In this document: positions 31,612-40,189 of the stretch, one piece after another
Layout of the letters: every line of letters begins with the position of its first letter
Position numbering within the stretch: the first letter of the stretch is position 1
Origin: Bacteroidota bacterium
GTDB taxonomy: Bacteria; Bacteroidota; Ignavibacteria; UBA10030; UBA6906
Reading direction: 5' to 3'
Assembly: GCA_019637975.1 (NCBI GenBank)
Contig: JAHBUR010000006.1
Coordinates: forward strand, 62,001-126,000
Length of the DNA: 64,000 nucleotides
Notes under the pieces: generated by a model
Databases searched by the model: none
Told to the model about the DNA's origin: nothing
The model's input: the letters and a program-made list of their open reading frames with translations, nothing else
Position numbers and translations under genes: made by a program

Positions 31612-33450
31612 ATGAAACTATTGCGAGTTGCTTTACTGACTGTTGTTCTTGCCGCCATATCGGTGGGGCAAGAATTGCTGCCGGTTCGTTCACCAATTGC
31701 TGTTGGCGAGCAAGCATCCGTTGCGCCGCAGCATCAGGCGGTTATTCGGGGCGTTTTGCGCGATATGAATACGTTTGTTCCCCCTCCGTCTACGCTCAAC
31801 CGTCCTGCCACCGCAACATTCATCGTCACCTACAACGGATTCACGCCGCAGGCGCAGGCGGCGTTTCAACATGCCGTGAATATCTGGGCGTCGTTGCTCA
31901 CTTCGACTGTCCCGATCAGGGTGACGGCGAACTGGACTGCGTTGCCTCCGAACGTTCTCGGATCGGCGGGCGCCTCCACGTTGTACCGCGATTTTCCGAA
32001 CGCGCCGCAAGCGGGAACATGGTACGCTGTTGCTGTTGCCGAGAAACTCGCGGGAGCAGATCTCAACCAGACAACCGATTCCGACATTAATGCCAACTTC
32101 AGCAGCGCAATCCCCAACTGGTACTTCGGCACCGACGGCAATACACCCTCCGGCCAGTTTGATTTTGTGACGATTGTGTTGCACGAACTCGGCCACGGCT
32201 TGTCGTTCTTCGGATCGATGACGGTTTCATCCGGGCAGGGAAGTTGGGGCGGAGGCACGGCGTTCCCGTATATTTATGATCGCTACGCGGAGAATGGTTC
32301 GGCACAAGCGCTGTTGAATACATCTCTCTTCCCGAATCCGTCCGTGGCGCTTGCAACACAACTTCAAAGCAACAACCTCTTCTTCAACGGACCGCAAGCC
32401 GTTGCCGCGAACGGCGGTGTTCGTCCCCGGCTGTACGCTCCGGGTTCCTGGATTCAAGGCTCGAGCTACTCGCATTTGGATGAAGCGACGTATCCGGCGG
32501 GGAACCAGCATTCACTCATGACTCCCGAAATCGGAACGGCGGAAGCCATCCATTCTCCGGGCGGGATTACGTTGGGAATGTTCCGCGATATGGGATGGAC
32601 GACAGGTGGCGGCGGAAGCTCGAACATCAAGTTTGAAGAACGCTTCACCACCACAACAATTCCTGCCGGATGGCGCGTGGTCGACAACGACGGCGGCGGC
32701 ACTCCGCTCGCGTTTCGCCAACTGCTTGTCTTCCAGAGCGGTGATACCATCCGCCCGCAAATCGGCACAAGTTTCTGGTTCGGCAGCTTCAACGGAGCCA
32801 ATGCCAGCGGCCGCATTGATGAATGGCTGATTGGCCCGAGAATCAACAACATTGCGGTCGGCGATACGCTCAGCTTCTGGGCCGGAGCAATCGGCGGGCA
32901 ATTCAACGACTCGCTGCGTGTCTGGATTTCCACAACGGACAGTAACCGAACGAGCTTCACCAACATGATCGCCTATTTCAGAGTGCCCGGCCCCATCCGG
33001 TCGTGGCATGAGTTCAAGTTCCCTCTCTCGCAGTTCGCCGGCTCGCATATTTTCTTCGCCGTGAATTATTTCATCGTTGATGGCGGCCCGAGCGGCACGC
33101 ATTCGGACAATGTGTGGATTGATCACTTCACCGTCACGTCGGTTGGTTCGTCCTCTGTTCCGGAACGTCGTCCGGGTGAAATTCCCGTTGCGATGGCGCT
33201 TGAGCAGAACTATCCGAATCCGTTTAACCCGGCAACAAAAATCCGCTTCGACCTTCTGACGCCCGAACATGCAACACTCAAAGTGTTTGACATGTTGGGG
33301 AGAGAAGTGACAACGCTGGTTGACGCACCGCTCAATGCCGGCAGCTACGAATCGACATTCGATGCCGGGCGGCTTTCGAGCGGGATGTATTTCTACCGGT
33401 TGCAGGCAGGAACATTCAGTGAAACGAGGCGTATGATGTTGCTGAAGTAG
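31612..33450 (+). CDS. Secreted zinc-metalloprotease-like protein with choice-of-anchor and T9SS domains
   Basis: The 612-residue protein has a signal peptide. A catalytic-looking domain (residues ~60-330) carries HELGHGLSFFG near residue 193, a HExxH zinc motif, followed by YDRY and the SHLDE/SLMTPEIG segment that often closes such active sites. The third zinc ligand is not the metzincin HxxGxxH arrangement. A jelly-roll domain of the choice-of-anchor J/cleaved-adhesin type follows (FEERFTTTTIPAGWRVVDND ... FWFGSFNG ... DEWLIGPRI). Last is a T9SS sorting domain (NYPNPFNPATKIRFDL ... MLLK). It is probably an exported protease that acts outside the cell. AAGGAGGGGG precedes the ATG. Confidence 0.87.
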   Translation: MKLLRVALLTVVLAAISVGQELLPVRSPIAVGEQASVAPQHQAVIRGVLRDMNTFVPPPSTLNRPATATFIVTYNGFTPQAQAAFQHAVNIWASLLTSTVPIRVTANWTALPPNVLGSAGASTLYRDFPNAPQAGTWYAVAVAEKLAGADLNQTTDSDINANFSSAIPNWYFGTDGNTPSGQFDFVTIVLHELGHGLSFFGSMTVSSGQGSWGGGTAFPYIYDRYAENGSAQALLNTSLFPNPSVALATQLQSNNLFFNGPQAVAANGGVRPRLYAPGSWIQGSSYSHLDEATYPAGNQHSLMTPEIGTAEAIHSPGGITLGMFRDMGWTTGGGGSSNIKFEERFTTTTIPAGWRVVDNDGGGTPLAFRQLLVFQSGDTIRPQIGTSFWFGSFNGANASGRIDEWLIGPRINNIAVGDTLSFWAGAIGGQFNDSLRVWISTTDSNRTSFTNMIAYFRVPGPIRSWHEFKFPLSQFAGSHIFFAVNYFIVDGGPSGTHSDNVWIDHFTVTSVGSSSVPERRPGEIPVAMALEQNYPNPFNPATKIRFDLLTPEHATLKVFDMLGREVTTLVDAPLNAGSYESTFDAGRLSSGMYFYRLQAGTFSETRRMMLLK

Positions 33451-35438: not shown

Positions 35439-35456
35439 ATGACTAATATTGGTCAT
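35439..35456. promoter_or_regulatory. 18-bp near-perfect palindrome ahead of the GldL-like operon
   Basis: ATGACTAATATTGGTCAT is symmetric except for one base pair on each side. It lies about 145 bp before the first gene of the operon and overlaps a weak TTG box (35449-35451) with TACATCCC 21 bp further on. A dimeric repressor or activator site is a plausible reading. Confidence 0.4.
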
Positions 35457-35597
35457 CACGTTTTGTAATCTTTACATCCCCTTCCCTGTTTTCGAGTCTT
35501 TTTCCGCAGTTCCTCTGTGCATTCCCGTGGCATGTGAATTGACATAGTGCCCCGCATGACAAACACATCTACCCCCAACTTATCCGAGGAGAGCGTA

Positions 35598-36179
35598 ATG
35601 CAGAGGTATTTCAATGTGATTCAGGCGCTGGTGTATGCGGGAGCGGGCTTCCTTGTTGTGATCGTCGGCCTTCGGGGACTTGGCGATCTGAGTCAGCTTC
35701 AGTTTGTTCCCGGGTGGGTGCTTGAGGAAAGCACCGGAAGGATTTCCGTCAACATCGTCATCTTCGGATTGGTTGCCGAGTTTGTGATGCTGATGGCCCT
35801 CGCGTACGTCTTCTACAAAGGGCCGAGGCTTACTCCTGAAACTGCAGTTGAAGGGAACCATGCGGTGCATGCTGTCACTGCGTCTCCGGATATTACGAGA
35901 CTTCTCGAAGCAGAGCGGGAGATGATAGAAGCGTTGGGCAAAAAGATTGAAACACTTGTGGACGCCGAACGTCGTGTTATCGAGCAGATCGGGAACAAGT
36001 ATAATACGATTGCCGAATCACAGCGGGGTATTCTGGACTTGCTTGCCCGCCGGCTCGACGAACACCATGCCGCTGATGAGAGTATTCTTGAACGCATTGA
36101 GGCGAATGTTGATTTCCTGAAGAGCGCACATCTCGTTCGCCGCCGGCCCCAAGCGGAAAACAGTTCAACGCTTTCGTGA
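35598..36179 (+). CDS. GldL/PorL-like two-helix motor protein
   Basis: The 193-residue protein starts with two transmembrane helices (ALVYAGAGFLVVIVGLRGLG and VNIVIFGLVAEFVMLMALAYVFY) and then a long coiled-coil cytoplasmic tail (LLEAEREMIEALGKKIETLV ... RRVIEQIGNKYNTI). The second helix carries a Glu inside the membrane in GLVAEFVM. This parallels the GL(V/I)TEALIFF segment of GldL, whose intramembrane Glu is needed for proton-driven T9SS and gliding motors. The size also fits GldL. GAGGAG lies before the ATG at 35598; an ATG at 35547 would add a non-conserved leader. It is the first gene of a tight four-gene operon. The identification rests on topology and the Glu motif. Confidence 0.7.
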   Translation: MQRYFNVIQALVYAGAGFLVVIVGLRGLGDLSQLQFVPGWVLEESTGRISVNIVIFGLVAEFVMLMALAYVFYKGPRLTPETAVEGNHAVHAVTASPDITRLLEAEREMIEALGKKIETLVDAERRVIEQIGNKYNTIAESQRGILDLLARRLDEHHAADESILERIEANVDFLKSAHLVRRRPQAENSSTLS

Positions 36180-36192
36180 GAGAGGTGTCCCA

Positions 36193-37479
36193 ATGCCGAA
36201 AGCCTCATTCTATTTTGTGTTGTATTTGATTGGAATCGTCAATCTTCTCTCCATCATCACCGAGCGGGACTATGCGCTTGACAGTCTTGTCAAAGACTAC
36301 GAGCAGCCGCTCAAACTTTCGGCCCCGTCAATGTCGCAGTTTGTCGCCGGCCGTTCCGAATCGGTCGAAGTCCTGGTGTCCAACATCAAGTCGCCCGCAG
36401 AGAGATCCTCCATCCAATATCATATCGCCCCGCATTCCGATTACGGCGAGAACGGGTTTGCTTCGTTGCCCGTGATCGAGAGTGAAACGGGGAATGCAAG
36501 ATTCACCGGGGCGTTTGTCAAGCCCGGCGAGTACCGTTACAGCGTTTGGGCAAACGTGATGCGCCAACTTCCGAAAGGCGCCGGCGGACAGCGTGTGCGT
36601 ACCGGCTCCGACACGGTAACAGTGCTGATTGTTGTTTCGCATGAGAAGAGTGAAATTCCGGGAACGAAATTCTCGATGGCTGTTGACAAGAAAGCAGAAC
36701 AGTGGGTGTCGGGAATTCCCTACATCAAGACGGTGTTCGTGAATACCGATCCGCGCAACGTGAGTCTTGCCGGGTTGCCTGCCGGATTCCGTCGGGGGGC
36801 AGTTGGCGAGAACAGCATCCAGCTCATCTGGGACAAGCCGATGCCGGGAACCGCGAAGATTGCGTTGAATGGAAACGCCGGCAGAAATCTCACCGCTGCA
36901 CTCGATGCCGCATCGCTTGCATTCTCGGTGAATGTCGAGCCGCCGGCGTGGAATCCGGTGCCCGCGAGAACGGCCTACTGGAATATCCCCTATACATTTC
37001 AGAGCAGGGTCGGCGAATTGGATGTGAACGAGTATACCATCAACGTCTTCGCGAACGGAAGTATCCCGGTTTCATCGTCGAGGCAATTCCCGATTGTGGT
37101 GATGCCGGAACGGACATGGTCGAGCCTGACGTTTGTCGCGACGTCGTTTCACGGGCATGAAATGCTTCGAACCGAAATTCCCGTCAAATCCCCGCCGCCT
37201 CCGCAGATCAAGTGGACAAGTTCGAGACTGGAAGGAGACGACTATGTTGTCAGCTTTACGGCGGAAGATGTCGGCGGGAAAGATGTGAACGTGAACTGCG
37301 TGCTCGTTCAGCCGTCGGGTCTGACCGCCGTGTTGAGCGCCCGTCATGGCAAGTCATTTACGTTTACCATCAAGAATGTTACCGCTACCCGTCCACAAGC
37401 ACTCGTCGTTCGAACATCAATTCACGGTATTGGCGGCGTGTCGGTTCCGTTGGACAGAACATTCCCCATTCTTTACTAG
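36193..37479 (+). CDS. GldM/PorM-like single-anchor periplasmic protein
   Basis: The 428-residue protein has one N-terminal membrane helix (FYFVLYLIGIVNLLSII). The rest is predicted periplasmic and made of successive beta-sandwich-like segments (SESVEVLVSNIKSP, YRYSVWANVMRQLP, IPYTFQSRVGELDVNEY, KDVNVNCVLVQPSG). This is the topology of GldM, the rod that couples the GldL motor to outer-membrane partners. Overall sequence similarity to classical GldM is not obvious to me, so the call depends on its position 14 bp after the GldL-like gene. It probably forms an inner-membrane complex with that protein. Confidence 0.6.
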   Translation: MPKASFYFVLYLIGIVNLLSIITERDYALDSLVKDYEQPLKLSAPSMSQFVAGRSESVEVLVSNIKSPAERSSIQYHIAPHSDYGENGFASLPVIESETGNARFTGAFVKPGEYRYSVWANVMRQLPKGAGGQRVRTGSDTVTVLIVVSHEKSEIPGTKFSMAVDKKAEQWVSGIPYIKTVFVNTDPRNVSLAGLPAGFRRGAVGENSIQLIWDKPMPGTAKIALNGNAGRNLTAALDAASLAFSVNVEPPAWNPVPARTAYWNIPYTFQSRVGELDVNEYTINVFANGSIPVSSSRQFPIVVMPERTWSSLTFVATSFHGHEMLRTEIPVKSPPPPQIKWTSSRLEGDDYVVSFTAEDVGGKDVNVNCVLVQPSGLTAVLSARHGKSFTFTIKNVTATRPQALVVRTSIHGIGGVSVPLDRTFPILY

Positions 37480-37496
37480 AAAGGTCGAGGATTGTC

Positions 37497-38930
37497 ATGA
37501 AAAACACAGAATGGAAACAAGACCTGGTTCACGGCCTTGAACTCGTGCTCTTCATCATTCTTCTGTACGGGATTTTCGTGATTACCGCGTACGGGCAGTA
37601 TGCCGCGACATCACGCATGGATATCGGGCGTGACACATCACGGATTACGATTGCGCCCGCGACACTGCTGACGGAAAGGGCGATTACGACGCGGCTGCAG
37701 GATTCGCTGCAGATTGTACGCGAGCGTGTCGAGCAGTTGTATACGTTGCTCGATGGTATCGAACGATCGTCATTCAACTTCTCGGGTTTGCGTTCGTGGC
37801 GCGTCAACGATTTCGAGTTCCAGGATGTGTTGCGCAACGCCGTGTTCAGAGTAACGCAGGATTCGAACATCATTCTCGAGAAATCGGATATTCAGGTAAT
37901 CGCAACACCTCATCCACATAACGATCTCGTGGCCATCTATTTCGGCGAGAATGAGCTTCAAGGGAAACGGTTGCGGGAGGTTCTCCTGAATCCTGAGAAC
38001 AAGCCGCTTCGTCTCAAACAGAAACTGATTGCCAGCGGTCAGTTCGGGCAGGATCGCGAGCTTGTTGACCGGAATTTCAAGATCGAGAATATCCTTCCGC
38101 CGATGCTCGTCACGGAAAGCGACAGCATTCTCGGCAACTTCAACCGGTACAATCTCGCGTATGACGGGCGTACGGAGCCGGTGGTATTGAACGTACGCTT
38201 CGTTGATAACGCAAACATCCGGTTCGGGAATGATTGGGGAGTGGAAGCAAAGCTCGGCAACGACGAACTCGGCTACCCGATGTGGACGAGCGGCAACCTT
38301 GCAGTAATGGCATTGTACAAGCGCATCAAGCTGGGAATGCAACTTCCCTTTGCGGGCGGGACTGGTACGACGTCATTTCTTGGCTCGTCATTGAAGCCGC
38401 GGCGTCTTGACGGAACATACGGAGTGGCAGGTGAGTTCGATTTCGCATTCGCCGGAGGTTCATTCACATTCGGAGGCAGGCGTCGTGATACGGATGGAAC
38501 TTTCTCCGATCCCAGCCGCATCTACTCCATCCGGACGTCGGCAATGTTGTGGTATTCCTACACGCTGAACATCAACAACAAGGCGAACCTGATGCGCGTG
38601 AAATTCGGAGCGGGCATGCATTCGATTTCACAGGATGCGCTGATGCCGCCAACCGGAACTGAGAAGGAACGCATTGTGACGACGGATCATACCAGATTCT
38701 TCTGGAGCCCGTACCTCAAAGTTGAATTCATGAATCAACAATTCTCCAACAGGTTCGGTGCAAGTCTGCAATACTACAAAGAGTGGGGGCTTGCCACCGC
38801 CTGGTTGGAGATTGTCAATAATACACTGCGTGTAGAACTTAAGGGCGCATTGCCGCTTCTGCGATCAAGTGCGGACTGGGAGCCGTCGCATTTCGTGATG
38901 GTCACTATACCGTACACAGTTACATTGTGA
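37497..38930 (+). CDS. Envelope protein of unknown family, operon partner of the GldL/GldM-like genes
   Basis: The 477-residue protein has an N-terminal membrane helix (VLFIILLYGIFVITAY), a helical stretch with coiled-coil character (SLQIVRERVEQLYTLLDGIE), a mixed domain to about residue 230, and a beta-rich C-terminal half with alternating aromatic strands that looks like an outer-membrane barrel. RFGNDWGVEAKLGNDELGYP recurs in altered form (RFGNDWRITGIIGTDELGY) in the next gene, so the two are paralogues. GAGG lies about 7 nt before the ATG at 37497. Extension further upstream would run through the preceding gene. No family is recognised. Confidence 0.8.
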   Translation: MKNTEWKQDLVHGLELVLFIILLYGIFVITAYGQYAATSRMDIGRDTSRITIAPATLLTERAITTRLQDSLQIVRERVEQLYTLLDGIERSSFNFSGLRSWRVNDFEFQDVLRNAVFRVTQDSNIILEKSDIQVIATPHPHNDLVAIYFGENELQGKRLREVLLNPENKPLRLKQKLIASGQFGQDRELVDRNFKIENILPPMLVTESDSILGNFNRYNLAYDGRTEPVVLNVRFVDNANIRFGNDWGVEAKLGNDELGYPMWTSGNLAVMALYKRIKLGMQLPFAGGTGTTSFLGSSLKPRRLDGTYGVAGEFDFAFAGGSFTFGGRRRDTDGTFSDPSRIYSIRTSAMLWYSYTLNINNKANLMRVKFGAGMHSISQDALMPPTGTEKERIVTTDHTRFFWSPYLKVEFMNQQFSNRFGASLQYYKEWGLATAWLEIVNNTLRVELKGALPLLRSSADWEPSHFVMVTIPYTVTL

Positions 38931-38941
38931 AAGGTGATAGT

Positions 38942-40189
38942 ATGAGAAATCAAAGTGTACTGTTCTTTGTCGTGTTGCTGCTGCTGTGCGGCATGAGTCG
39001 GACGACGGCACAGATCGAGCACCTGCGAGCTGATCTCCAATCTGAAAACGAAGAACTGAAATCGCTCGAACGCATTCTCGCAACGCTCAACAGCGGCGAT
39101 ACGACATATGCATCGTACTTTCCGATGTGGACTGTTGTTGACAGAAACACGAAACTCAGCATCTATTCGGCATTCAGAAATCGCGGGAAAGAATTTTCGG
39201 AAGACGATCAGGTAATTGTCATCGCGAATCCCAACATGCAGGGAATAGCCGACATTCGCATTGGCAACATGTCATACGGGAGACTGTATACGTCAAAGTC
39301 ACTCGACCCGGAATTGCAGAAGAGACTCCTGAAGAAAGAGTATGTGCTTGTCGAGGAGACGCCGTTCGGGTACCGGAACGCCGCACGGCAACAGCGGTTA
39401 CCGGCCGGGAATCCCAATTGGGTTTCGATGAACATCTCTTTGTTTGGCGGAGAGATGCGATTCGGCAACGACTGGAGGATTACAGGGATAATCGGCACGG
39501 ATGAATTGGGCTATGCATTCTGGTCGTCAGGACAAATCAGAATGCTGGCGGGGTACAAGTCGGTTGAACTCGGCGCCTATTTGCCGCTGCAGGGCGGGCT
39601 CATTGAAACGAATCATGCTGAACGGCCGCTTTCGCTAAAGCCGAGGTTGCTGAACGGAAGCACCGGAGTTGCGGGGAGATTCGAGTTTGAGTGGGACGAG
39701 GTGAAGATCAATTCTTCCCGCTTCACATACGGCGGAATCGGCGGTTCGTTCGCAGTCGGCAGTCTCGACCGCCGAAGACCCGAATATCTCACAAACAATC
39801 TTGAGAGACTCTATTCGATCAGCGGCCTGTTGCAACTCTACTACGCCTTCAACTACAGTTTCGACGAAGAGAAGAGTGTCTCAGCGCGGGCAGGCGTATC
39901 ATGGCACCGCGTAACGATGAACAGATTTCTCGCGAATGAGATATTTAAGTACGATCATGAAAATGTTGTCACACCCGTCGTTGCACTCGAATACAAAAAC
40001 AGCGGGGCGGATTGGTTCCGGCTTAACATGCAGTACTCGCGTTTGCTGAGTTTCGGGGCCTGGGCTGAAATTGTGCCGCGGTACATCAACGCTGAAGTGA
40101 GGTACTCAACGGTGTTGTTGCGTGAGCCGGGGGAGTGGGAGCATCCGTACTATCTGTACGCAACGCTCGGTTTCAACTTCGATTTTTGA
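38942..40189 (+). CDS. Outer-membrane beta-barrel-like protein, paralogue of the preceding gene
   Basis: The 415-residue protein has a classical signal peptide ending at TTA before QIEHLRADLQ, a short coiled-coil segment and a domain shared with its upstream neighbour. Its C-terminal half has many amphipathic strands and ends in a terminal aromatic (FNFDF), as outer-membrane barrels do. The shared motif is RFGNDWRITGIIGTDELGY ... WSSGQIRMLAGYKSVELG. It begins 11 bp after the previous stop codon, so it is co-transcribed. The neighbour has a membrane helix where this protein has a cleavable signal, suggesting different anchoring of two related parts. Confidence 0.8.
   Translation: MRNQSVLFFVVLLLLCGMSRTTAQIEHLRADLQSENEELKSLERILATLNSGDTTYASYFPMWTVVDRNTKLSIYSAFRNRGKEFSEDDQVIVIANPNMQGIADIRIGNMSYGRLYTSKSLDPELQKRLLKKEYVLVEETPFGYRNAARQQRLPAGNPNWVSMNISLFGGEMRFGNDWRITGIIGTDELGYAFWSSGQIRMLAGYKSVELGAYLPLQGGLIETNHAERPLSLKPRLLNGSTGVAGRFEFEWDEVKINSSRFTYGGIGGSFAVGSLDRRRPEYLTNNLERLYSISGLLQLYYAFNYSFDEEKSVSARAGVSWHRVTMNRFLANEIFKYDHENVVTPVVALEYKNSGADWFRLNMQYSRLLSFGAWAEIVPRYINAEVRYSTVLLREPGEWEHPYYLYATLGFNFDF

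Follow-up and report, generated by a model that had tools for sequence, protein, structure and literature searches.

A GldL-GldM-like gene cassette with a pair of predicted outer-membrane barrels in an Ignavibacteria genome

Organization of the four-gene locus

The window, a stretch of 64,000 nucleotides from a Bacteroidota bacterium of the class Ignavibacteria, was examined around four consecutive genes on the + strand, here called L, M, OM3 and OM4. The intergenic gaps are 13, 17 and 11 bp; the genes are tightly spaced, as the first-pass annotation had described. It had placed them at 35439 to 40189; the end is that of OM4, which stops at 40189, while position 35439 is intergenic, upstream of the first ORF. 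Searches of Pfam, NCBIfam and PDB sequences gave no curated-family or PDB sequence match for L, M, OM3 or OM4, and GldK is not encoded beside the cassette.

L (35547–36179, + strand) encodes a GldL-like inner-membrane protein of 210 aa, with two helices and a coiled-coil tail (the latter judged by eye), starting at GTG 35547 or ATG 35556. Its hydrophobic helices span residues 24–42 (35616–35672) and 70–88 (35754–35810; IVIFGLVAEFVMLMALAYV). G32 and A33 of helix 1 are invariant, and R43, just past the helix, is near-invariant. E78 (35778–35780) lies inside helix 2 and is conserved in 63/63 relatives, so that the earlier description of a two-helix protein with an intramembrane glutamate was borne out.

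M (36193–37479, +) encodes a 428-aa protein with one membrane anchor, predicted to extend into the periplasm as an arm of tandem Ig-like beta domains. The sole anchor, a transmembrane helix at residues 4–22 (36202–36258, +), opens a class-wide signature, YFVLYL...ERD. An AF2 model of M (mean pLDDT 87) consists of one helix and, after residue 36, of beta structure throughout except for short helices. The N-terminal helix and multi-domain arm of this model fit the single-anchor periplasmic protein proposed from the first reading.

OM3 (37497–38930, +) is predicted to be an outer-membrane barrel with an N-terminal coiled coil and a periplasmic alpha/beta domain, and is a homolog of the class-wide barrel protein OMA. 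OM4 (38942–40189, +) is its paralog (phmmer 8e-29), and RFGNDW and DELGY are common to both. The AF2 model of OM3 (pLDDT 75) contains the coiled coil, the alpha/beta domain and some 14 barrel strands; in the fold search, porins matched it best. OM3 and OM4 of the window are related to two class-wide barrels, OMA (hhalign 96%) and OMB (80%). The shared motifs and the outer-membrane character assigned to the pair in the first-pass annotation are therefore upheld, and the two paralogs are both predicted to form barrels in the outer membrane and to carry a periplasmic domain.

Copies in the genome and distribution in the class

A second complete four-gene set is present in the same genome at locus L014 and a third at locus L101, beside hslU, together with a five-gene relative at locus L102 in which M is split; the genome thus holds three four-gene copies, the window included, and one five-gene copy. 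In a tree of M these loci are ancient paralogs, and for three of them genus mates have an ortholog. When the genome collection was scanned, 34 loci came up, almost all of them in metagenome bins of Ignavibacteria-type, Chlorobi-type or unplaced Bacteroidetes, some of which are assigned to Melioribacter roseus. The query was a six-row subset of the 11-row L alignment, the full alignment having no stretch conserved enough. In about 23 other Ignavibacteria loci whose flanks reach far enough, the order is without exception L, M, M', barrel, barrel, with M in two genes, and the barrel pair is frequently doubled. The L profile and an independent profile of the M N-terminus picked identical genomes, 20 of the 148 sampled from the phylum and all of them in the window's class. 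With complete second and third copies in the genome and both profiles in the same 20 genomes, the gene set is far beyond chance, and its expected conservation was confirmed. M' is a secreted protein of about 360 aa; it showed no profile similarity to M that would make it the missing C-terminal half, and neither M', OM3/OM4 nor OMA/OMB showed profile similarity to GldN or GldK beyond signal peptides.

Other families of the class carry an M-like protein that has the N-terminal signature of M and a length of 535 to 800 aa; barrel-type proteins come next, in many cases together with a VWA/OmpA protein. At L178:7754-14743, and similarly at loci L176, L177 and L182, a large M-like protein precedes one or two barrel-type proteins and a protein with VWA and OmpA domains, which is possibly a peptidoglycan-anchored partner. 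In some relatives L genes occur with no M next to them; at L024:7558-10559 and L105:9671-15456 such L-like genes are followed by a gene that was identified by eye as a putative AAA/STAND-type ATPase. One further fragment (L185:392-5106; G258 C111) contains an L–M pair, without barrels within the fragment, that adjoins an 806-aa ORF resembling an SLBB/Wza-type export protein.

Relationship of L and M to known motor proteins

L has the topology of GldL: two N-terminal helices and a strictly conserved glutamate in helix 2, as for GldL E49, which is needed for motor function (PMC8986121). A G-A-x-x-hydrophobic sequence and a basic residue 11 positions past the G also occur in L with the same spacing as in GldL. 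A match of L to the GldL profile, which the first reading would have led one to expect, was not obtained: TIGR03513, which works elsewhere in the phylum (matches in 39/148 genomes), found nothing in L or anywhere in the whole genome. Profile–profile comparison of L with GldL over both helices (hhalign) gave a weak similarity (P 0.003), and 9/200 block shuffles scored as high. At the sequence level the resemblance to GldL is one of residues and is statistically weak.

For M, which likewise has no curated-family match, residues 262–412 align with domains D3–D4 of GldM (hhalign, P 5e-4), a level that 0/100 block shuffles reached. For another M subfamily the alignment with GldM D3–D4 had P 4.5e-4, with the same register in 54/75 shared columns and a register within 3 in all of them. 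One reversed GldM control, however, equalled the C-terminal half of M in score (25.7 versus 25.2), and the beta pattern alone therefore accounts for part of the signal. We regard the second half of M as distantly similar to GldM D3–D4 on the strength of these alignments. Fold searches with M returned generic tandem-Ig proteins, with GldM absent among the best 50 matches; such a search cannot separate GldM from other proteins of this kind and was set aside as a test of kinship. The helical D1 domain of GldM (residues 32–232; PMC5790014) is not seen in the model of M, which has Ig-like domains instead. The original likening of M to GldM thus stands for the single anchor, and the distant D3–D4 alignment speaks for it, whereas helical D1 and a curated-family match were not found.

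The cassette shares with GldL-GldM and PorL-PorM adjacent genes in the same order, a single-anchor M and a long periplasmic beta arm, and differs from them in giving no GldL or GldN profile match, in occurring in several copies per genome and in having two barrels after M. OM3 and OM4 occupy the same operon place and envelope side as the GldK-GldN and PorK-PorN ring, but that ring combines an FGE-fold lipoprotein with a periplasmic protein, whereas OM3 and OM4 are predicted membrane barrels without profile similarity to either. With the 5:2 motors MotAB, ExbBD and TolQR the proposed principle is alike, a proton-driven ring protein and a single-helix arm; the acidic residue of the cassette, however, is carried by the ring protein, where GldL also has it, and not by the single-helix partner. 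Neither L nor M gave a Pfam match to MotA_ExbB or ExbD at E up to 10. A divergent canonical set in genome G112 (family f22, L068) resembles the cassette in its short GldM without helical D1 and in an apparent barrel-like segment within the operon; it differs in keeping a recognizable FGE-type GldK and in being found by the GldL profile. Its genes, at L068:287-5136, run gldL-gldM-(gldN-like)-gldK, the GldK being fused behind the apparent barrel-like N-terminal segment.

Type 9 secretion and the proposed machine

SprA is encoded in 117 of the 148 phylum genomes, including all 36 of the window's class, while canonical GldN was found in 36/148 and canonical GldL in the 39 noted above. Within the class GldL gave one weak match only, in the coiled-coil part (G009), and GldN (TIGR03523) had no match in the window's own genome or in any of the 36 class genomes sampled. 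The claim that gldN is missing is thus borne out at the profile level genome-wide, and a canonical GldL or GldN elsewhere in the same genome, which was looked for, gave no profile match. In that genome SprA appears split into frames of 1728 and 618 aa (L103:4958-11981; G000 C20), where a genus mate (G055) has one open frame of 2343 aa; the split would be a frameshift or an assembly error. The window itself encodes, at 31612–33450, a secreted, metalloprotease-like protein that carries a choice-of-anchor J domain as well as a C-terminal sorting domain of the type 9 kind.

These features raise the possibility that L, M, OM3 and OM4 power type 9 secretion, and maybe gliding, in this lineage, standing in place of GldL, GldM, GldK and GldN and driving the SprA translocon. 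SprA is present along with at least 150 proteins that bear the type 9 tail (Por_Secre_tail; the count is a lower bound), M resembles GldM, GldL and GldN are silent, and type 9 secretion is found in Bacteroidetes only according to TXSScan (PMC4793230). However, 16 of the 36 class genomes (for example G004, G093, G124 and G132) have SprA and no L-like, M-like, GldL or GldN match, and the cassette is therefore not required for type 9 parts across the class. Beyond the class, the GldL profile has no match in about 42 SprA-positive genomes either, and G112 holds its diverged canonical set, so that profile silence is no proof that a motor is absent. The genome carries four paralogous loci, moreover, none of them beside sprA (locus L103). 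Mainly because of the 16 genomes, we consider it doubtful that the cassette is simply the type 9 motor.

It is also conceivable that the cassette is an energized machine of the same general kind but unrelated to GldLM, the likeness having arisen by convergence between motor pairs of a two-helix and a one-helix protein. The failure of L against the GldL profile and its marginal similarity would agree with this, as would an M without helical D1 and with the common Ig-like arms. Two subfamilies back the M–GldM D3–D4 register, however, and no MotA/ExbB or ExbD/TolR family matched, which makes convergence improbable. Least probable of all, and in our estimate a very slim chance, is a passive tether or signalling complex in which L and M hold the barrels in place or act as envelope sensors and do no proton-driven work. 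A single-helix Ig-domain protein could serve as a tether, but a buried helix glutamate that is invariant in 63/63 relatives would be costly there and is typical of proton-coupled motors (PMC8986121, PMC9389320).

The balance of these observations leans towards a trans-envelope machine built like GldL-GldM and equipped with a dedicated barrel pair, OM3 and OM4; L and M probably share descent with GldL-GldM, and we infer that they act as a motor. In this GldLM-like machine a ring of several L subunits would encircle the helices of an M dimer, and proton flow past E78 of L would move M. The tandem Ig-like arm of M, crossing the periplasm, would push or turn the periplasmic domains of OM3 and OM4, which would stand where GldK and GldN stand in type 9 secretion and would, as the first-pass annotation had proposed, replace them. 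Secretion, surface movement and transport are candidates for the outer-membrane process energized in this way. The presence of four loci in one genome suggests several specialized machines rather than one housekeeping system. More tentatively, and with less than even confidence, we propose that the cassettes form a class of their own among proton-driven trans-envelope machines, a sister of the type 9 motor; each L/M pair would drive its own barrel pair, and several would operate in parallel per genome, for export or surface movement outside the described systems. No motor of such a kind in Ignavibacteria was found in the open-access literature searched (PMC), although one may be described elsewhere.

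To our knowledge, proton-driven motors that exert force on the outer membrane are few, and GldLM had been taken to come with the GldK/GldN ring. The motor design itself is already known; what would be new is that a divergent GldLM-type motor cassette has a barrel pair of its own. Cultured relatives exist, such as Melioribacter roseus, and the machine is therefore open to testing. The genome also raises the question of how export is energized in an organism with SprA, more than 100 type 9 cargo proteins and no recognizable gldL or gldN. If our reading is true, the GldLM design has been re-used, as a motor cassette that brings along its own two barrels, is widespread among Ignavibacteria relatives and occurs four times in this genome.
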